From Allomeiothermus silvanus DSM 9946 (GTDB lineage: Bacteria > Deinococcota > Deinococci > Deinococcales > Thermaceae): 64,000 nucleotides of DNA. Each line of letters begins with the position of its first letter. Position 1 is the stretch's first letter. The stretch is from positions 2,376,001 through 2,440,000 of the forward strand of contig NC_014212.1 in assembly GCF_000092125.1 (NCBI RefSeq). The letters are read 5' to 3'. Shown here piece after piece: positions 45,408 through 61,613 of the stretch. A program made the position numbers and the translations under genes. The notes under the pieces were generated by a model. The model did not search any database, had not been told where the DNA came from, and was given only the letters and a program-made list of their open reading frames with translations.

Positions 45408-46184
45408 ATGCCCTCCCTCGAGGCCACCCTGCGCCACCAAGCCATCCTCGAGCACCTACGCCAAGAAGGACAGGTGCGGGTTTCCGAGCTTTCCAAACGC
45501 TTCGCGGTCTCGGCGGTAACGATCCGCGCCGACCTCGAGCACCTCGAGCAACAAGGGGCACTCCGGCGCACTAGGGGGGGTGCGGTCCCAGCCCAGCAGC
45601 GACGATTCGAACTCCCGCTCGAGGCCAGCCGCCAAGTCCACGCCCGCGAGAAGGAGCGGATCGGACGCCACGCTGCGGGCCTAGTTCGTAGTGGAGAAAC
45701 CATCATCTTAGACGTGGGAAGCACCACCACTGAGTTAGCCCGGAGCCTATCGCCAAGCCTGCGGAACGTGGTGGTGGTAACGAGCGCCCTCAATATTGCC
45801 CTGTTGCTGGAGTCGCATCCCGGTATCACCGTGGTGGTGACTGGCGGAACCCTGCGGCCCTTACAGCACTCCCTGGTGAACCCCTACGGGACCCTGCTCT
45901 TGCAGGAGATCAACGCCGATAAAGCCTTCATCGGCTGCAACGGGGTACACCCCGAGAAAGGCTTTACCAACACCAACCTGCAAGAGGCTGAGGTAAAGCG
46001 GGCCATGATCGAAGCAGCCCGTGAGACCATCGTTCTGGCGGACCATTCCAAAATCATGCAGGTGGCGACCGCGCGCATTGCTCCGCTGGGGGCTGCCCAG
46101 CTCCTCGTAACCAGTTCGAAAGCCCGGCCTGAAGACTTAGAGGCCCTGCGCAAGGCTGGGCTCGAGATCGCGTTAGGTACGTAA
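45408..46184 (+). CDS. DeoR-family regulator of the galactoside locus
   Basis: 258 residues. The DeoR-type helix-turn-helix (ILEHLRQEGQVRVSELSKRFAVSAVTIRADLEHLEQQGALRRTRGGAV) is followed by the DeoRC sensor domain (ILDVGSTTTELARSL, VVVTGGTLRPLQHSLV, ADKAFIGCNGVHPEKGFTNTNLQEAEVKRAMI), which usually binds a phosphosugar. It sits before the ABC importer and beta-galactosidase genes and probably represses them. CGAAAG repeats at its own, the binding-protein and the galT promoters are candidate operators. Confidence 0.9.
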   Translation: MPSLEATLRHQAILEHLRQEGQVRVSELSKRFAVSAVTIRADLEHLEQQGALRRTRGGAVPAQQRRFELPLEASRQVHAREKERIGRHAAGLVRSGETIILDVGSTTTELARSLSPSLRNVVVVTSALNIALLLESHPGITVVVTGGTLRPLQHSLVNPYGTLLLQEINADKAFIGCNGVHPEKGFTNTNLQEAEVKRAMIEAARETIVLADHSKIMQVATARIAPLGAAQLLVTSSKARPEDLEALRKAGLEIALGT

Positions 46185-46199
46185 TTCCCTAAATCTTTA

Positions 46200-46257
46200 C
46201 GAAAGTTTCCGAAAGTTTGCACAACTATTGACAAGCCCCCGAAAGTCCAGGTAGACT
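46200..46257 (+). promoter_or_regulatory. Galactoside ABC operon promoter with three CGAAAG operators
   Basis: TTGACA (46228-46233), an 18-base spacer and TAGACT (46252-46257). CGAAAG occurs at 46200, 46210 and 46240, spacings of 10 and 30 bp, all on one face of the helix. Two copies lie upstream of the -35 and one in the spacer, suited to repression by a multimer. Confidence 0.7.
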
Positions 46258-46355: not shown

Positions 46356-47624
46356 ATGAAACGAAGGATGTGGTTGATCGCAGCTTTGGGGGCATGCTTG
46401 CTGGCCGCGGGTTTGACCCAAAGCAACCTCACCGGCAGGCTGGTCTACAACTCCAACCAGTCAGATCCTAAACCCCGGGCCTTGGACGCCAAGATCGTGG
46501 AGGCTTTCAAGAAGAAGAACCCGAACCTCCAGATGGAGTTTAATACCGTAGATCACGAAACCTTCCAGAATACCTCCATCCGCACCTACTTGGCCTCCGA
46601 TAACCCCCCCGACGTGCTCACTTGGTTCGCTGGGAACCGGATGCGGGCTTTTAGCAGCCGAGGTCTGGCTGCCGACATTACCGACGTGTGGAAGAGCAAC
46701 AACTGGGAGAAAGTCTACCCCAAGGGCTTCCAGGCGCTCTCCAAAGACGCCAGCGGCAAGTACGTGTTCGTCCCGGTGAGCTACTACTGGTGGGCGGTGT
46801 ACTACCGCAAAGACATCTTCAACAAGCTGGGGCTCAAAGAACCCAAAACCTGGGACGAGTTCCTGGCGGTATGCAAAAAACTCAAGGACGCCGGCTACAC
46901 CCCCATCGTCAACGCCGCCAAGGAGACCTGGCCGCAGGGGGGTTGGTTCGACTTCCTGGACATGCGGGTCAACGGCCCCGCTTTCCACAAAGACCTCACC
47001 GACGGAAAAATTCCCTACACCGATGCCCGGGTGAAGAAGGTCTTTACCTACTGGCGTCAGCTCGTGGATAACAAGTATCTGCTCGAGAACCCCGCCGCTT
47101 ACACCTGGCAAGACGCCGCCAACCTGATGATTCAGGGCAAAGGCGCAATGTATCTGATGGGCGACTTCCTGCGCGACCAGTACCCCGACGACCGCGAGGC
47201 CGCGGAGCTGGACTTCTTCCGCTTCCCCATCATCGATCCCAAAGTGCCCATCGGCGAAGAAGCCCCCACTGACGGCTACTTCATACCTGCCAAAGCCAAG
47301 AACATGGCCAACGCTAAGGCTTTCCTGAGCTTTTTGGGCTCCAAGGAAGTGGCCGAGATGGCTGCCCAGGATATAGGCCGCCTCCCGGTGCGCAACGATG
47401 TAGACGTCAAGACCCTCTTCAAGGACAAGCCCCACATCCAAAAGGGAATTGCTCTCCTGGCCGACGCCGACGACATCCTACAGTTCTATGACCGCGACAC
47501 CGTGCCGGAGATGGCCCGTATCGGAATGGACGGCTTCGTGAAGTTCTTGAGCAATCCCACCCAAGCCGATGCAATCCTGGCTGACCTCGAGAACCAGCGC
47601 AAGCGCATCTTCGGGCAACGGTGA
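46356..47624 (+). CDS. ABC sugar-binding protein (galactoside locus)
   Basis: 422 residues with a signal peptide (LIAALGACLLAAGLTQ) and a family 1 solute-binding fold (LVYNSNQSDPKPRALDAKIVEAFKKKNPN, DNPPDVLTWFAGNRMRAF, YLMGDFLRDQYPD). GGAGG precedes the ATG by 8 bases after a leader of about 90 nt. It is the first gene of the importer-beta-galactosidase operon, so the likely ligand is galactose, lactose or another beta-galactoside. A strong hairpin follows it. Confidence 0.9.
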   Translation: MKRRMWLIAALGACLLAAGLTQSNLTGRLVYNSNQSDPKPRALDAKIVEAFKKKNPNLQMEFNTVDHETFQNTSIRTYLASDNPPDVLTWFAGNRMRAFSSRGLAADITDVWKSNNWEKVYPKGFQALSKDASGKYVFVPVSYYWWAVYYRKDIFNKLGLKEPKTWDEFLAVCKKLKDAGYTPIVNAAKETWPQGGWFDFLDMRVNGPAFHKDLTDGKIPYTDARVKKVFTYWRQLVDNKYLLENPAAYTWQDAANLMIQGKGAMYLMGDFLRDQYPDDREAAELDFFRFPIIDPKVPIGEEAPTDGYFIPAKAKNMANAKAFLSFLGSKEVAEMAAQDIGRLPVRNDVDVKTLFKDKPHIQKGIALLADADDILQFYDRDTVPEMARIGMDGFVKFLSNPTQADAILADLENQRKRIFGQR

Positions 47625-47706: not shown

Positions 47707-48663
47707 GTGCAAACCGCACCCCGGTCCAGCCGGAACCCCAAGAGGGCCACGAGCCTTTACCAGGCCAGGTGGCTGGTGGTATTCTTGGGACTCCCGCTGC
47801 TTTTATACTCGGTGTGGGTAATTTATCCATTCGTCCGCACCTTCACCCTGGCCTTTGCTAGCTACGACGGCCTCTCCCCCGCCCAGTGGATCGGCTGGCA
47901 AAACTTCCGCGAGATGTTCCAAACGGAAGCCTTTCGCTTAGCCTTATGGCACAACCTGATCTGGATCCTGATCTTCATCACCGTGCCCACCTCTGCCGGG
48001 CTGGGCTTGGCTATGGTACTTAACCAGGGGGTTCGCTTCGATCGTTTCCTAAAAATCGCTTACTACTTACCACTGGTGCTGGCTCCGGTGGTGACGGCGA
48101 TGGTCTGGGGCTGGATCTACCATCCCCAGCAGGGCCTGGTCAACACCGTGATCGCCGGATTTTTGGGTGTGTTGAAGACGCTAGGATTCAACGTCAATCC
48201 CGAAGACGCCAGGAATATCGGCTGGCTGGGGGATCCTAAGCTGGCTTTGCTCTCGGTGATTGGGGCCGCGGTATGGCGGCAGGTGGGCTACGTGATGGTG
48301 CTCTATCTGGCCGGGCTCAAGACCCTCGACGCAGAGGTGCTCGAGGCGGCCCGGGTAGACGGAGCCGAGGGCTTCAATCTCTTCCGCTACATGATCTTTC
48401 CCATGTTGGCCCCGGTGACTACGGTGGTGGTAGTGATCTCCATCGTAGACAGCCTGCGCAGCTTCGACCTGGTGAACGTGATGACCAACGGAGGACCCTT
48501 CAACAGCTCGGAGGTACTCGCCAATTACATGGTCAAGACTGCTTTCCACGACTACCGCCAGGGTTACGCTGCAGCGGTGGCGGTGATCCTCTTTCTGATC
48601 ACCTTTGTATTCACCCTGATCTACCTGCGCCAAGTCATGCGGCAAGAAGAAAGGAACCTATGA
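47707..48663 (+). CDS. ABC sugar permease, MalF type
   Basis: 318 residues, GTG start after AGGGAGGTAACC. Six TM helices with the EAA loop [28 protein letters not shown]. It overlaps the next permease by 4 bases. It forms the galactoside import channel with its neighbour; the ATPase must come from elsewhere. Confidence 0.93.
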   Translation: MQTAPRSSRNPKRATSLYQARWLVVFLGLPLLLYSVWVIYPFVRTFTLAFASYDGLSPAQWIGWQNFREMFQTEAFRLALWHNLIWILIFITVPTSAGLGLAMVLNQGVRFDRFLKIAYYLPLVLAPVVTAMVWGWIYHPQQGLVNTVIAGFLGVLKTLGFNVNPEDARNIGWLGDPKLALLSVIGAAVWRQVGYVMVLYLAGLKTLDAEVLEAARVDGAEGFNLFRYMIFPMLAPVTTVVVVISIVDSLRSFDLVNVMTNGGPFNSSEVLANYMVKTAFHDYRQGYAAAVAVILFLITFVFTLIYLRQVMRQEERNL

Positions 48664-49529
48664 GTGCTGCCGCTTCCGTACAAAGCCCTGCCCGAAAGCG
48701 CAAACTGCGCCGGGGACCCAACATTTGGGTGCTGGGGCTGGTGTGGTTCTTTGCCCTTTTATGGCTGGTTCCCTTCGTGGGAGCCATCATCACCAGCTTC
48801 CGCACCTTCGACGACCTCAACACCCGCGGCTTCTGGAGTGTGCCGCAAGAGATCACGGTAAATAATTACGTGCGGGCCTGGGGGCAAGCGGGGGTCAGCA
48901 GATACCTGCTCAACAGCTTCAAGATCACGCTGCCGGCGCTGGGGCTATGTATGCTTTTTGCTTCGATGTGTGCCTACGGGCTGGTGCGCTTCCGCTTCCG
49001 GCTTTCCGTCCCGATTTATGTGATGTTCGTGGCCGGGCTGATGCTTCCTTTCCAGGTATTGCTCTTGCCGGTGTTTTTCCTGGCCAACAAGCTGCACATC
49101 TACGATACGTTGTGGGCGTTGATCCTCTTTCACGCGGCTTTTCAGCTCGGCTTCTGCACCTTCGTGCTGCGCAACTTCATGAAGACGGTCCCGTTCTCGC
49201 TTTTCGAGAGCGCTCTGATTGATGGAGCCTCGGAGTGGACTATCTTCCGCCGCATCGCCCTACCTCTGCTGCTGCCGGGGCTGGCTGCTTTGGCCACGTT
49301 GGAATTTACCTGGATCTTCAACGACTACCTGTGGGCCATCGTGCTGTTGCAAAGCGACCAGCTCAAGCCCATCACCACCGGCTTGGCTAACCTGCGCGGA
49401 CAGTACATCAGCGACTGGCCGCTGATGGTAGCGGGTAGCCTGATCGCCACCGTGCCCACCTTGGTGGTCTTCTTCGGGTTGCAACGCTACTTTATCGACG
49501 GGCTCACGGTGGGAGCAACCAAGGGATAA
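48660..49529 (+). CDS. ABC sugar permease, MalG type
   Basis: 289 residues from ATG 48660 (MSAAASVQSPARKRKLRRG), overlapping the previous stop. Six TM helices with the EAA loop FSLFESALIDGASEWTIFRRIALPLLLPG. The C-terminus (RYFIDGLTVGATKG) is typical of MalG-like permeases and matches the neighbouring operon type. It lies 3 bp upstream of the beta-galactosidase frame. Confidence 0.93.
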   Translation: MSAAASVQSPARKRKLRRGPNIWVLGLVWFFALLWLVPFVGAIITSFRTFDDLNTRGFWSVPQEITVNNYVRAWGQAGVSRYLLNSFKITLPALGLCMLFASMCAYGLVRFRFRLSVPIYVMFVAGLMLPFQVLLLPVFFLANKLHIYDTLWALILFHAAFQLGFCTFVLRNFMKTVPFSLFESALIDGASEWTIFRRIALPLLLPGLAALATLEFTWIFNDYLWAIVLLQSDQLKPITTGLANLRGQYISDWPLMVAGSLIATVPTLVVFFGLQRYFIDGLTVGATKG

Positions 49530-49532
49530 GTC

Positions 49533-51527
49533 GTGGCAGGGCCCTCAGTAAATGGCGAAGACAGTGTGAAAACACCCAAAACCCCAACTATGCTTGGAGT
49601 CTGCTACTACCCCGAACACTGGCCCCGCGACCGCTGGGCCGAGGACGCCCGCCGGATGCGGGAATGCGGCCTTAGCTACGTACGCATCGGTGAGTTTTCC
49701 TGGAGCCGACTCGAGCCCGAACCGGGTCGCTTCGATTTCGAGTGGCTGGACCAGGCCATCGCGACCCTTCACGCCGAAGGCCTCCAGGTAGTGCTGGGAA
49801 CACCCACTCCCACCCCGCCTAAGTGGCTGGTGGACCGACACCCCGACATCCTGGCGACAGACCGCGAGGGCCGCTTGCGCAAGTTTGGCTCGAGGCGTCA
49901 CTACAGCTTTTCGAGCCGAACCTACCAAGCACATACCCGCCGCATCGTGACCGTCATAGCCCAGCGCTACGGTAACCACCCCGCAGTAGCGGGCTGGCAG
50001 ACCGATAACGAGTACGGCTGCCACGACACCACCCGCAGCTATGGCCCAGAGGATTTGTTGGCCTTCCGCGAGTGGCTGAGGGCTAAATACGGCTCGATCG
50101 AAGCGCTGAATGCAGCCTGGGGCAACGTCTTCTGGAGCATGGAGTACCGCACCTTCGAGGAGATTGACCTACCCAACCTCACCGTCACCGAGGCTAACCC
50201 GGCGCACTGGCTCGACTTCTACCGCTTCAGCTCGGATCAGGTGGCGGCTTACAACAAGCTACAGGTCGAAATCATCCGCCAGTATTCGCCGGGGCGGTTT
50301 ATCACCCATAACTTCATGGGCTATACCCCCGACTTCGACCACTTCAAAGTAGCAGAGGACCTCGACGTAGCCAGCTGGGACAGCTACCCGCTGGGCTTTA
50401 CCGATATGGACGTTTTACCGGTCTCCGAAGAGGAAAAGCTCCGCTACGCCCGCACCGGCCACCCCGACATCCCGGCCTTTCACCACGACCTCTACCGCGG
50501 GGTGAAGCCGCGCTGGTGGGTGATGGAACAGCAGCCGGGGCCGGTGAACTGGGCGGCCCATAACCCTTCTCCTGCCCCCGGCATGGTGCGGCTATGGACC
50601 TGGGAAGCGCTGGCCCACGGAGCCGAAGTGGTGAGCTATTTCCGCTGGCGGCAATTCCCCCAGGCCCAGGAACAGAAGCATGCCGGGCTCAACCGCCCCG
50701 ACTTCCAACCCGACGTGGGCTACTGGGAAGCCCAGCAGGTCGCGCGGGAGCTGGAAGGGCTCGAGCTGCCCCCTACCCAACAAGCCCCGGTGGCGTTGGT
50801 CTTCGACTACGAGGCCGACTGGGTAACGCGCATCCAGCCGCAGGGCCGCGAGTTCACCTACCGCGACCTGGTCTGGAACTTCTATCAGGCCCTGCGCTCT
50901 CTTGGCCTGGATGTGGACTTCGTGAAGCCAGGGGGGAGCCTCGAGGGGTACCGGCTCGGGGTAGTCCCCTGCTCCCCGATCCTGCATGAGGCCACGATCC
51001 GGGCTTTGCACAATACCCAGGCCCAGCTGGTCTTCGGGCCACGTACGGGCTCTAAGACCGAATCCATGGGTATCCCTCCAAACCTCCCCCCCGGCAAGCT
51101 GGCCGAATGGCTGCCCATCCGGGTAACCCGAGTCGAATCGCTGCGCCCAGGGGTGAACTTCGCCCTCGAGTGGAACGGGCAGCGCTACACCTCTTCGGTG
51201 TGGAAGGAGTGGGTCGAGTCCGATCTCGCGCCCGTCGCCAAGTTCGACGATGGCCGAGGGGCTCTCTGGCAGCACGATAACCTGCACTACCTGGCTTTCT
51301 GGCCCACGGTGGCTTTTCTCCGGGCCTATCTGGGCCACCTGGCCAACCGCCAAGGCCTGCAAACTTTCTCGCTTTCCGAGGGCTTGAGGCTACGGCGGCG
51401 GGGCCACCTGACCTTCGCCTTCAACTATGGCCCACACGAACAGCAAGCTCCGGCCTCCCCGCAGGCCCGCTTCGTGTTGGGGGGCCGTATGGTCCCGCCG
51501 CACGGCCTGAGCATCTGGGAGAGCTAA
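49533..51527 (+). CDS. Beta-galactosidase, glycoside hydrolase family 42
   Basis: 664 residues. The catalytic TIM barrel ([21 protein letters not shown]) holds the acid/base Glu160 in TDNEYG and the nucleophile Glu332 in [11 protein letters not shown], followed by the trimerisation and C-terminal domains. It has no signal peptide, so it cleaves imported beta-galactosides in the cytoplasm. The start is uncertain: GTG 49533, GTG 49566 or ATG 49590 ([12 protein letters not shown]), the last matching Thermus relatives. Co-transcribed with the importer. Confidence 0.95.
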
Positions 51528-51736: not shown

Positions 51737-52777
51737 ATGCACAAGCGCATGTTCAAAAAAGCCGATGGCCGGGTGATGTTTTTATACGGCAATGAACCCC
51801 ACACCCTACCCCCGCTGGAAGAGATGGAGCCGGCCCCCACCCCCCACCCCCACATGCGCTGGCACCCCTTAAGACGGGAGTGGGTGGTGTATGCAGCCCA
51901 CCGGCAAAACCGGACCTTTCTCCCCCCGCCCGAGTATGATCCGCTCTCCCCCACCAAACCGGGCGGCTTCCCTACCGAGATCCCCTTCGAGACTTTTGAG
52001 ATCGCGGTCTTCCCCAACCGCTTCCCCTCGCTCACCCCGCACCCCGGCCCTGCGCCCGAGGATATCCCGGTGCCGGTGGCTCCCGCCAAGGGCGACTGCG
52101 AGGTGGTGGTCTACACCCCCGAACAGACCGGGAGCCTGGCCACGCTCTCGCAAGAACGCCGCGAGCTGCTGGTACGGGTTTGGGCTGATCGCTACCGCGA
52201 GTTACTGGCCCGAGACGAAGTGCGCTTCGTGATGCCCTTCGAGAACCGGGGCGAGGCCATAGGGGTCACGCTGCACCACCCTCACGGACAGATTTACGCC
52301 TATCCCTTTGTTCCGCCGGTCATAGAGAAGGAGGTCCAGAGCTTCCGCGAGGGCCCGGTGCTGGTCTCGCTGCTGAACGACGCCGCACCCTACGTGGTCT
52401 GCCAGGACGAGTACACCCTCGCCATCGTTCCACCCTTTGCCCGCTACCCCTACGAGGTGCTCGTTTACCCCAAGCGCTTCCACCCTGGCCCCTGGACCTT
52501 TAGCGACGCTGAGTTCGCCAGCTTTGGCAAAGTTCTGGGCGAAGTGGTGGCGAAATACGACCGGCTCTTCGCCCGCCCGATGCCCTACATTATGCTGTTG
52601 CACGCCGCACCCGAAGGCGAGGAAAGCACTTTCCACTTCCACGTCGAGTTCTACGCCGCGCTGCGCGCCCCCGACAAGCTCAAGTACCTAGCCGGAACCG
52701 AAGTTGGGGCGGGAACTTTCGCGGTAGACGCGCTCCCCGAGGAAACCGCCAAGACCCTACGGGAAGTCAAACCATAA
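51737..52777 (+). CDS. galT: Galactose-1-phosphate uridylyltransferase
   Basis: 346 residues. Leloir pathway enzyme exchanging UDP-glucose and galactose-1-phosphate. Histidine triad active site HPHGQ at 181-185 with nucleophile His183, and the C-terminal zinc/nucleotide segment FHFHVEFYAALRAPDKLKYLAGTE. GGGAG precedes the ATG. Its own CGAAAG operators suggest a separate transcript from the beta-galactosidase. Confidence 0.96.
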   Translation: MHKRMFKKADGRVMFLYGNEPHTLPPLEEMEPAPTPHPHMRWHPLRREWVVYAAHRQNRTFLPPPEYDPLSPTKPGGFPTEIPFETFEIAVFPNRFPSLTPHPGPAPEDIPVPVAPAKGDCEVVVYTPEQTGSLATLSQERRELLVRVWADRYRELLARDEVRFVMPFENRGEAIGVTLHHPHGQIYAYPFVPPVIEKEVQSFREGPVLVSLLNDAAPYVVCQDEYTLAIVPPFARYPYEVLVYPKRFHPGPWTFSDAEFASFGKVLGEVVAKYDRLFARPMPYIMLLHAAPEGEESTFHFHVEFYAALRAPDKLKYLAGTEVGAGTFAVDALPEETAKTLREVKP

Positions 52778-52895: not shown

Positions 52896-53906
52896 ATGAA
52901 CCCAATCGCCCTACAAAAGCTCCGAATCTGGATGAACGAGCGCGGTTTTGAGCGCTTCTTTGTGCAAAATCCGGAGAACTTCGCTTGGCTCAGCGGGGGG
53001 GGAGACAACACCGTGGTGGTAAATCGCCCGGCGGCCTGGCTCGAGGTGGCAGGCGATGCCTCTACCCCCGTCCGGCTCCACACCTCCCGGATTGAAGCCC
53101 AGCGGCTAACCGAGGAGGAAGTAGAGGGGCTCGAGGTCATCTCACACCCCTGGTATAGCCCACCCAACCTACCTAGCCCCAACGACTCCGAGCACGACCT
53201 CACCCTGCTGCGGCTGGTGTTAGGCCCCGAGGAGCAAGAACGCTACCGGGCTTTAGGCCGGGACGCAGCGAGAGCAATAGGGGAAGTAATGCAGGACGCC
53301 GAACCGGAGTGGACCGAATTCGAACTCGCCGGGGCGGTGGCGAGCGCCCTCTACGCCTACGGCATTCAGCCCGTAGTGCTGCTGGCAGCAGGCGAGGAGC
53401 GCATCTTCACCTACCGCCATCCGCTACCCAAGAACCGGCCGCTTGGCCGGCTGGCCATGGCGGTGTTGTGTGGACGGCGCGCAGGGCTAATCGCCAACGT
53501 TACCCGGATCAAGACCTGGGGGCACAGCCAGGCGCGAGCGCTCATGGATCGCGTTTTGCAGGTGGAGTCGGCCGCTCTTAATTGCACGGTGCCGGGCAAA
53601 ACCTTGGCGGAAGTTTTCCTCACTTTGAAACAGGCCTATACCGACATCGGATACCCCGAAGCTATCGAGGAACACCACCAAGGTGGGCTCACCGGCTATA
53701 AACCGCGCGAGATGCTCGCCACCCCGAGCAACCTCACCATCCTCGAGACCGCTATGGCCGTTGCCTGGAACCCCAGCCTGAGGGGGGCTAAAGTTGAGGA
53801 CACCTTCCTGATCGGCGAGAATGGCCTGGAAAACCTCACCCTAGACCCCCACTGGCCCATGGTCAAGGTCGAGGGGCGGTTAAGGCCAGGGCTGCTCGAG
53901 GGCTAG
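52896..53906 (+). CDS. M24 (aminopeptidase P/creatinase)-like protein in the galactose operon
   Basis: 336 residues with an N-terminal creatinase-type domain and a C-terminal pita-bread domain. Family traces are the HHQGGLTGYKPRE block and AKVEDTFLI near the C-terminus. The paired Asp ligands expected in the central strand (vDxGxxxxGYxSDxTRT) are missing; that stretch reads AMAVLCGRRAGLIANVTRIKTWG. It is therefore probably not a dinuclear metallopeptidase. It lies between galT (118-bp gap) and galK (10-bp gap) on the same strand. A role in galactose metabolism or regulation is inferred only from context. Confidence 0.75.
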   Translation: MNPIALQKLRIWMNERGFERFFVQNPENFAWLSGGGDNTVVVNRPAAWLEVAGDASTPVRLHTSRIEAQRLTEEEVEGLEVISHPWYSPPNLPSPNDSEHDLTLLRLVLGPEEQERYRALGRDAARAIGEVMQDAEPEWTEFELAGAVASALYAYGIQPVVLLAAGEERIFTYRHPLPKNRPLGRLAMAVLCGRRAGLIANVTRIKTWGHSQARALMDRVLQVESAALNCTVPGKTLAEVFLTLKQAYTDIGYPEAIEEHHQGGLTGYKPREMLATPSNLTILETAMAVAWNPSLRGAKVEDTFLIGENGLENLTLDPHWPMVKVEGRLRPGLLEG

Positions 53907-53916
53907 AAGGAGAACC

Positions 53917-54966
53917 ATGAGTTTCAAAGACCGATTCGGCGCCTTCTCCGAAACCAGCGCGCAGGCCCCCGGCCGGGTCAACCTGCTGGGCGAACACACC
54001 GACTACAATGATGGCTTTGTCCTTCCTACTCCCCTACCCTATTTCACCTATGTCGAAGCTGATCGGCTCGAGGGCCGTATCGAAGGCTACGCCGAGAATT
54101 TTGGCGAGACCCGCTCCCGATCGCTCGATCAAGGTAAGCAGGGGGACTGGCTCGACTACCTAGCCGGGTGTGTCTGGGTGCTTCGCACAGCCGGCTACCC
54201 GGTTCCCGGTGGACGGTTTTATGTGAGGAGCGAGGTGCCTATGGGCGCTGGACTTTCCAGCTCGGCAGCGCTCGAGGTAGCCACCCTGCGGGCCTTACGT
54301 GCCCTGTACCGACTTCCCCTCGACGACAAGCAGATCGCCCTCCTGGCCCAACAGGCCGAGGCCGAGTACGTGGGGGTACGGGTAGGGATCATGGACCAAA
54401 TGGCGAGTTCGCTGGGCCAGCCGGGACAGGCGTTATTCCTGGACACGCGTACCCTCGACTACCAATTGGTGCCGCTCCCCGCCGGGTACAAAGTAGCGGT
54501 GGTGGACTCCGCCGTACCCCGCCGCCTGGCCGAGGCCGGGTACAACGAGCGCCGCTCCCAGTGCGAGGAGGCCGCCCGTCTCCTGGGGGTAAAGGCCCTG
54601 CGCGACGTGGGTCTGGAGCGGCTGAACGAAGTGGAGGCACTCCCCGAACCATTGGGCCGCCGCGCCCGGCACGTCATTACCGAAAACGCCCGGGTGCTCG
54701 AGGGAGTCACGGCGCTCAGATCGGGGGATATAAGGCGCTTTGGCGAACTCATGCTAGCCTCTCACCGCTCGCTCCGCGACGACTATGAAGTCTCCATCCC
54801 CGCGCTCGACCGGTTGGTGGATCTGGCCATGCAAAATGGCGCCGCCGGGGCGCGACTCACCGGGGCTGGGTTCGGTGGGGCCATCGTAGCCCTGGTGCCG
54901 GAGCAGGAATATGAGCGGTTCAAAGCCGGACTGTCTCGAGGTTATCCCCAAGCCCACTTCGTTTGA
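53917..54966 (+). CDS. galK: Galactokinase
   Basis: 349 residues, a GHMP kinase. Galactose-binding motif GRVNLLGEHTDYNDG, ATP loop PMGAGLSSSAALEVA and the third motif TGAGFGGAIVALV are all present. It phosphorylates galactose released by the beta-galactosidase for GalT. AGAAGGAGAA gives a good ribosome-binding site, and the gene follows the M24-like gene closely, so the two are probably co-transcribed. Confidence 0.96.
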   Translation: MSFKDRFGAFSETSAQAPGRVNLLGEHTDYNDGFVLPTPLPYFTYVEADRLEGRIEGYAENFGETRSRSLDQGKQGDWLDYLAGCVWVLRTAGYPVPGGRFYVRSEVPMGAGLSSSAALEVATLRALRALYRLPLDDKQIALLAQQAEAEYVGVRVGIMDQMASSLGQPGQALFLDTRTLDYQLVPLPAGYKVAVVDSAVPRRLAEAGYNERRSQCEEAARLLGVKALRDVGLERLNEVEALPEPLGRRARHVITENARVLEGVTALRSGDIRRFGELMLASHRSLRDDYEVSIPALDRLVDLAMQNGAAGARLTGAGFGGAIVALVPEQEYERFKAGLSRGYPQAHFV

Positions 54967-56501: not shown

Positions 56502-56820
56502 ATACCGGATTCAAAAAGACAGTTTACAAAACCCAAAACTCCAGAGGCTGTCTTTTTGAATCCAGAGCACACCCCTCCCTTGAGCACCGGCGCTAGCCGG
56601 GGGCCGATGGCCCTTCACTTGAGTACCGGCGCTAGCCGGGGGCCGATGGCCCTTCACTGACGGTCGGCGAAGAAAGCGTATCCCTTCCAAGGGGCGGTAT
56701 CGCCCACCCCTCGCTTCGCTCGGCGAAACTACGCCACCGCTACGCGGATAACTTCGGTCGGCCGCCCCGCCTTGGCGGGGCGGAGTTACCGTTCGGTAAC
56801 GAATCAACCGAATCTGGTAT
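56502..56820. repeat. MITE-like palindrome island
   Basis: A 319-bp non-coding block is bounded by inverted ends ATACCGGATTC (56502-56512) and GAATCTGGTAT (56810-56820), one mismatch in 11. Inside are a perfect 16-bp inverted repeat (56507-56522 with 56548-56563), two tandem 39-bp units (56580-56618 and 56619-56657), a 10-bp perfect GC stem (56762-56771 with 56774-56783), and a 7-bp stem GTTACCG/CGGTAAC (56785-56800). The right end falls on the hslO stop codon. No clear target duplication is seen and no protein is encoded. Confidence 0.6.
56580..56657 (+). repeat. Two tandem 39-bp repeats
   Basis: Units at 56580-56618 and 56619-56657 differ by a single C/T change. Each contains two small stems (CCGGC/GCCGG and GGGCC/GGCCC). 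They lie inside the MITE-like block and are too few and uninterrupted to be a CRISPR array. Confidence 0.85.
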
Positions 56821-61498: not shown

Positions 61499-61522
61499 GG
61501 CTGATGGCTGGAGGCAAGACTC

Positions 61523-61613
61523 AAAACGCAAAACGCAAGACACAAGACGCAAAACGCAAAACGCCGCTCGACCATGGTTTAGGGCGTTCAGCGTTTAGCC
61601 TTTTGCGTTTGGC
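61523..61613 (+). repeat. AACGCAAAACGC repeat cluster with inverted arm
   Basis: AAAACGCAAAACGCAAGAC-like direct repeats (61523-61564) are followed by the inverse, GCGTTCAGCGTTTAGCC and TTTTGCGTTTGGCG (61574-61613). They can fold into an imperfect stem between potB and potC. Confidence 0.6.

Follow-up and report, generated by a model that had tools for sequence, protein, structure and literature searches.

A galactose operon with an M24-like gene

The window analysed in this study is the whole stretch of 64,000 nucleotides taken from the genome of Allomeiothermus silvanus DSM 9946 (3.72 Mb, three contigs). Between positions 46356 and 54966, the window carries a same-strand run of genes in the order ABC substrate-binding protein, two permease-type ORFs, GH42 β-galactosidase, galT, an ORF of 336 amino acids and galK. 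This ORF (52896-53906, forward strand), which we named M24L, forms an uninterrupted reading frame flanked by galT (51737-52777) and galK (53917-54966), with 10 bp separating it from galK. Its placement between both genes had been proposed by a sequence-only reading of this DNA, and the coordinates and the Pfam matches of the neighbours bore this out. The features of the region were the following:

45408-46184, forward strand: probable DeoR/GlpR-type regulator upstream of the operon (ORF; identity assigned by eye)
46228-46257, forward strand: promoter-like site TTGACA-18-TAGACT ahead of the operon (motif scan)
46356-47624, forward strand: sugar ABC transporter substrate-binding protein (PF01547)
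47707-48663, forward strand: ABC sugar permease 1 (ORF; matches permease-type ORFs of relatives)
48660-49529, forward strand: ABC sugar permease 2 (ORF; matches permease-type ORFs of relatives)
49533-51527, forward strand: GH42 β-galactosidase (PF02449, 503.5 bits)
51737-52777, forward strand: galT, galactose-1-phosphate uridylyltransferase (PF01087, PF02744; TIGR00209, 124 bits, cut-off 102)
52896-53906, forward strand: M24L, putatively metal-free M24-fold protein and candidate sugar mutarotase (ORF, Pfam, homologues, AlphaFold2 model)
53917-54966, forward strand: galK, galactokinase (PF10509, PF00288, PF08544; TIGR00131, 304 bits, cut-off 227)

The start of the second permease was inferred from an ATG at 48660 within an ORF listed as 48273-49529. 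The promoter-like site constitutes weak evidence, since one was found as compared to 2.1 in shuffled sequences. Elsewhere in the window, a 39-base unit is repeated in tandem at 56572-56658 (2.2 copies, 93% matches) and the 7-base unit GCAAAAC forms a tandem array of 7.3 copies at 61514-61564. The genome also encodes three further M24 proteins, with scores of 116-253 bits.

Fold and former metal site of M24L

In the Pfam scan, M24L matched PF00557 (Peptidase_M24) with 37.6 bits (cut-off 23) and scored 18.6 bits against Creatinase_N, below the cut-off of 22. None of the NCBIfam models came near its own cut-off; specifically, the ectoine hydrolase DoeA model TIGR02993 gave 10.7 bits versus an equivalog cut-off of 613, which leaves M24L outside that family. 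The same Pfam scan yielded neither a DNA-binding nor a redox-cofactor domain, and PF01263 (GalM/Aldose_epim) had no match at E<=1. The structure prediction suggested by the sequence-only reading returned a full M24 fold (AlphaFold2, pLDDT 97.1, pTM 0.93). In structure comparisons, also with Foldseek, this model matched prolidases, aminopeptidases P, DoeA and creatinase with Z scores of 28-31 over about 300-316 residues, and Spt16 was also among the matches (Z 26-28). The PF00557 match and the full-length matches to M24 structures assign M24L to the M24 "pita-bread" fold superfamily, with a predicted architecture of a creatinase_N-like N-terminal domain followed by a pita-bread domain.

We then judged the five metal-ligand positions of M24 enzymes against the canonical paralogue encoded in the same genome and Pyrococcus furiosus prolidase (1pv9). 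The canonical set of Asp, Asp, His, Glu and Glu corresponds in M24L to Val190, Asn201, Gly264, Asn292 and Glu301, so that four out of five ligand positions are replaced and Glu301 alone is kept. The codons of these and other informative residues were located as follows, with conservation given over 78 family members:

53418-53420, forward strand: His175, matched in a profile alignment to 1pv9 His192, the conserved substrate His of prolidase; invariant, 78/78
53463-53465, forward strand: Val190, first Asp-ligand position (alignment); V in 77/78
53496-53498, forward strand: Asn201, second Asp-ligand position (alignment); N 55, S 15, A 4, D 3, C 1 of 78
53673-53687, forward strand: HHQGG motif, residues 260-264, with Gly264 at the metal-His position (alignment); invariant, 78/78
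53706-53708, forward strand: Arg271, position of the second prolidase His, IHE (alignment); invariant
53769-53771, forward strand: Asn292, first ligand-Glu position, EPG to NPS (alignment by eye)
53796-53798, forward strand: Glu301, sole retained ligand-position residue, KVEDT (alignment); 78/78

The sequence-only reading had noted the absence of the two Asp ligands, and the alignments to the paralogue and to 1pv9 agreed with it (D to V190 and D to N201). The loss is in fact wider, since the ligand His (now Gly264) and the first Glu (now Asn292) are also gone. The HHQGG and VEDT blocks that the reading described as kept are both present, VEDT at residues 300-303. However, HHQGG is no conserved remnant of M24 enzymes: with Gly264 in place of the metal His, it substitutes for the HxxGHGxG metal-His motif. 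The second catalytic His of M24 metallopeptidases (IHE) is replaced as well, by the invariant Arg271, and five residues are deleted after Asn292. No conventional metal site built from other residues emerged from the alignment. By its aligned residues, M24L lacks the five-ligand set of an M24 metallopeptidase. Cys192 was considered as a stand-in for the first Asp ligand and discarded, as closer alignment placed Val190 at that position and Cys192 varies in distant members. His175 aligned to prolidase His192 in the profile alignment, yet it remained unaligned in the single-sequence alignment.

The residues W31, E67, R70, E74, W86, R169, H175, C192, R204, E224, Y248, the HHQGG motif, R271, N292, K299, E301 and D302 were invariant in 78 out of 78 members. 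Asn292 lies within the search pattern by which many of these members were found, but it was also invariant in a pattern-free set of 12 members. In 12 members that extend as far as haloarchaea and Pantoea, with 30-33% identity, the invariant set held with the exception of C192 and E224. Since these residues are invariant down to 30-33% identity and the whole M24 fold was modelled, the pocket of M24L would have been rebuilt rather than decayed.

The M24B prolidases and aminopeptidases P (P. furiosus 1pv9, Deinococcus radiodurans 5giu/5cdl) resembled M24L most in sequence. The likeness extends over the whole two-domain fold (Z 28-31), with Glu301, the TR motif and His175 aligned, whereas the replaced ligands and IHE His, the five-residue deletion and the sugar-operon context set M24L apart. 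Creatinase is a metal-free small-molecule enzyme with a conserved His232, whose place may be that of His175 in M24L. It shares the fold (1chm, 1kp0, 7yto; Z 28), but the sequence match was marginal (E 0.17) and no creatine-related context was seen around M24L. Likewise, the ectoine hydrolase DoeA/EutD (6twk, 6yo9) is similar in fold (Z 29) and differs in its TIGR02993 score, and no ectoine-related context was seen.

Linkage of M24L to sugar operons

To describe the family, we searched genome sets from several lineages. In Deinococcota, 65 out of 111 genomes matched M24L at E<=1e-5, and a wide gap separated M24L orthologues (>100 bits) from ordinary M24 paralogues (<45 bits), so that the features of M24L are not a product of chance. 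Within the window's own family, 32 out of 50 genomes gave a match above 100 bits. M24L was present in 17 of the 18 genomes of one group (g3), and the exception (G041) was also the only one without galK and galT matches. A scan of named genomes with the pattern [LVY]AWNPSL[PRS][GW], from which the best 80 of 146 relatives were taken, added loci from Meiothermus, Thermus, Acetothermia (Bipolaricaulota), many Cyanobacteriota, Geomonas, Citrifermentans, Myxococcota and others. Residues 290-295 are conserved by construction in these 80 loci because the scan pattern covers them.

The sequence-only reading had expected the gene to be linked to gal genes in relatives, and this was the case. Among the best 80 of 146 relatives, some of which are near relatives of one another, 56 loci had galT and/or galK within 3 kb on the same strand and 23 had both. 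The gene order was constant, with galT upstream of M24L in 37 out of 37 loci and galK downstream in 42 out of 42. The distance between M24L and galK was 50 bp or less in 31 of these 42 (median 15 bp). A β-galactosidase (GH42 or GH2), often heading the run, lay within about 6 kb in 30 of the 80 loci. The remaining 24 loci had no close galT or galK, 7 of them having less than 3 kb of flank on one side. In a second set of 40 loci, galT or galK was found within 3 kb in 14; the linkage count was based on the 80-locus set only, since L035-L074 and some of L075-L154 share genomes. The automatic neighbour clusters contained some ORFs that look like antisense artefacts of GC-rich DNA (for example c15, opposite galK) and overlooked a real gal gene in several rows, which tblastn recovered. 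In two Acetothermia loci, a protein resembling a sugar nucleotidyltransferase (by eye) occupied the place of galT, directly before M24L and galK (L082:6060-7004 and L084:746-1696).

M24L was also found in operons for other sugars. In Thermus, it lay directly behind XylA (TIGR02631, 683 bits, cut-off 447) and XylB (TIGR01312, 478 bits, cut-off 380). The annotated order on plasmid pVV8 of T. thermophilus HB8 is xylF, permease, ATPase, ROK regulator, xylA, xylB, M24L (WP_014677649.1), Gfo/Idh and SDR, M24L being labelled there as 'aminopeptidase P family protein'. In Trueperaceae-type genomes and in locus L064, ABC permeases, an isomerase-like protein, a PfkB kinase and a LacD-like aldolase preceded M24L (L045:2105-7776 and L064:1732-9764); the isomerase-like protein matched sulfoquinovose isomerase weakly (86 and 63 bits versus a cut-off of 700) and the L064 operon also held a GH31 enzyme. 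On haloarchaeal plasmids, M24L was near arabinofuranosidases, GH2-type proteins and sugar ABC transporters; in Pantoea, it lay between a GMC oxidoreductase and an SDR; and an aldo/keto reductase was a neighbour in both haloarchaea and L064. A second M24L set in Nostocaceae (L091, L093, L096, L105 and L106) was placed between DJ-1/ThiJ-like genes and a GH77 4-α-glucanotransferase, and neither galT/galK nor a sugar kinase was found near these loci. Genome G071 carried two M24L copies, 94.9% identical over 331 aa, one in a xyl operon and the other downstream of a gal cluster, as would suit an activity that is general for sugars. In addition, operon types clustered only loosely in the M24L tree. 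With operon labels set by hand, the gal label had to change at least nine times, which would be expected of a single activity that moves from operon to operon. A gal-specific partner, such as a GalT/GalK chaperone, was rejected, as the same family occurs in xyl and other operons.

The phylogenetic profile that the sequence-only reading had suggested pointed in the same direction. In the Geobacteraceae-centred set, the 11 out of 48 genomes that encode M24L were exactly those with galK, and by coordinates the two genes were adjacent in every one of them. Among the 145 genomes of the Nostocaceae-centred set, 36 had both genes, 3 only M24L, 11 only galK and 95 neither. Here galK was counted from matches above 60 bits (47 genomes), 18 weak partial matches out of 65 genomes having been dropped. 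In the genomes with both, M24L and galK were within 5 kb in 27 out of 36 and apart in 9. Among 27 Thermus genomes, galT was present in 27, galK in 26 and M24L in 10, and M24L occurred in 8 out of 8 genomes with GH42 and in 2 out of 19 without it. In Thermus, M24L tracks GH42 and not the near-universal galK/galT; thus, M24L follows sugar catabolism and not the mere presence of galK/galT. The Fisher tests on these co-occurrences ignore phylogeny, and the genome sets include shared descent. Two of the 10 Thermus matches (L036 in G062 and L038 in G046) were interrupted (in-frame TAG; two pieces in different frames), by either sequencing error or decay. Another genome of the Thermus group, otherwise without M24L and without GH42, carried beside galT a 41-residue remnant 60% identical to the M24L N-terminus (G048:C106:15991-16110), which looks as if M24L had been lost together with the galactoside cluster.

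Genome-wide profile searches for PF01263 completed the picture. The Geobacteraceae-centred set gave no match in its 48 genomes, the control being positive in 10 out of 14 known genomes, and neither did the 27 Thermus genomes, where those left out of the matches were taken as lacking one. Among 24 M24L genomes across phyla, 11 had no match and 1 had a strong match (322 bits). PF01263 was present in 11 out of 11 cyanobacterial M24L genomes examined (best match 94-129 bits). The window's genome encodes one PF01263 protein away from the gal operon (G000:C1:684633-685361), with a weak score of 117.9 bits, which is a possible alternative mutarotase. Many Deinococcota genomes carry galT-galK with neither M24L nor PF01263. 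An essential Leloir enzyme was rejected, as many Deinococcota have galK/galT without M24L.

A candidate metal-free mutarotase and competing explanations

We found no paper in the open-access PMC literature that names a function for the M24L family. The accessible text on the Thermus brockianus xyl genes describes xylF, xylH, xylR, xylA and xylB and leaves the M24L gene unmentioned (PMC5292009). The family apparently represents a widespread, uncharacterised and metal-free branch of the M24 fold that is tied to aldose catabolism. The sequence-only reading had suggested a sugar-binding, regulatory or new enzymatic activity in place of peptidase function. The non-peptidase, sugar-related role on this fold was strongly supported by the metal-site loss, the gal linkage across phyla, the co-occurrence with galK and the presence in other sugar operons. 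A purely regulatory role became less likely, as many polar residues are invariant where the active site used to be and the Pfam scan gave no DNA-binding domain.

Retaining β-galactosidases release the β anomer, and GalK and xylose isomerase take particular anomers. A mutarotase is the one function that would be useful in all the operons that carry M24L. We propose this activity because a free reducing aldose, which enters an enzyme that may be selective for one anomer, is common to the operon entry points and because GalM, the usual enzyme of gal clusters, is often missing. In our estimate, the chances are about even that M24L is a metal-independent small-molecule enzyme, most likely a sugar mutarotase (anomerase) that is non-homologous to GalM and fills its slot. 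The resemblance to GalM would concern the operon slot beside galK/galT and, as judged from context, the reaction, while the two proteins are unrelated in sequence and the GalM fold differs from the M24 fold. Slightly short of even, in our judgement, is the broader proposal of a new, non-homologous class of sugar mutarotase on the prolidase/creatinase fold. This class would have spread with gal, xyl and other aldose operons through Deinococcota, Bipolaricaulota (Acetothermia), Cyanobacteriota, Geobacteraceae, Myxococcota and haloarchaea, hidden as 'M24 family metallopeptidase'. If true, this misleading label would be corrected for a family of bacteria and archaea, users of galactose and xylose without GalM would gain a candidate for the mutarotase step, and M24L would illustrate once more how a peptidase fold can take on small-molecule chemistry without metals.

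According to this model, the GH42 β-galactosidase would release β-D-galactose and M24L would speed its conversion from the β to the α anomer by opening and reclosing the ring. GalK would then phosphorylate the α anomer and GalT would pass the product on. Xylose isomerase in the Thermus xyl operon would profit from the same anomerase activity, as would the first enzymes of other aldose operons. The analysis established the fold, the lost metal site, the place in the operon, the co-occurrence with galK and the presence in operons for different sugars; we infer that M24L is catalytic, that a free aldose is its substrate and that anomerisation is its reaction. The putative chemistry would consist of general acid/base catalysis by His175, His260/His261 and Glu301 with Arg204, Arg271 and Lys299 in the former metal pocket, residue roles that rest on alignment. 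Several observations count against the proposal. A thermophile would need a mutarotase least, since mutarotation is spontaneous and faster when hot. The PF01263 proteins of the window's genome and of all the cyanobacterial M24L genomes examined, the many Deinococcota with galT-galK and neither M24L nor PF01263, the 24 unlinked loci, the Nostoc copies beside GH77 and DJ-1-like genes and the two interrupted Thermus matches also speak against it.

Creatinase and DoeA are C-N hydrolases. As they are the closest metal-free small-molecule relatives by fold (Z 28-29), M24L could be a metal-free hydrolase that repairs sugar by-products by cleaving a C-N or similar bond, for instance in glycosylamines or in adducts from built-up galactose, xylose or arabinose. 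Such an activity would explain its presence with several reducing sugars, and some Nostoc copies adjoin DJ-1/ThiJ-like genes. However, these neighbours are confined to five related Nostocaceae loci, the DoeA model score is far below its cut-off (10.7 versus 613 bits) and a placement between pathway enzymes suits a pathway step better, so we consider repair unlikely. Rather unlikely, too, is a sugar-binding pseudoenzyme that senses the sugar and steadies or regulates the kinase or isomerase encoded next to it, or that provides a scaffold, in the manner of the eukaryotic non-peptidase M24 folds Spt16 and Ebp1/PA2G4. The lost metal site, the Spt16 fold match and the close coupling to galK (31 out of 42 downstream gaps of 50 bp or less) would fit this role. 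Nevertheless, at least 17 polar or aromatic residues are invariant to 30% identity, many of them at former active-site positions, which is beyond what a scaffold would be expected to retain. Moreover, the partners vary by operon (GalK, XylB, PfkB, oxidoreductases), and the two genes are apart in 9 of the 36 Nostoc-type genomes that have both.

The oxidoreductases next to M24L (Gfo/Idh and SDR in Thermus, GMC and SDR in Pantoea, aldo/keto reductase in haloarchaea and L064) would be compatible with another sugar-pathway step, such as an epimerase or isomerase acting at another carbon or a lactonase in oxidative pentose pathways. We regard this option as very unlikely, given that no lactone occurs in the Leloir pathway and that the Pfam scan of M24L gave no redox-cofactor domain. 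A peptidase, whether conventional or unusual, that trims peptides or glycopeptides and is found in sugar operons by chance would agree with the public labels 'M24 family metallopeptidase' and 'aminopeptidase P family protein'. This is scarcely credible, as M24L is found among sugar genes in one unrelated lineage after another, coincides perfectly with galK in the Geobacteraceae-centred set and has other residues in place of four out of five metal ligands and of the second catalytic His; a conventional peptidase was rejected on account of the lost ligand positions. Regarding the mutarotase reading, the YihR and YhcH anomerases belong to other protein families than M24L and offer a precedent for operons that carry an anomerase for their own sugar. 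The YihR-type sulfoquinovose mutarotase and the YhcH anomerase, the latter reported to be a metalloprotein, are encoded inside sugar-catabolic gene clusters (PMC5902678, PMC8141875).
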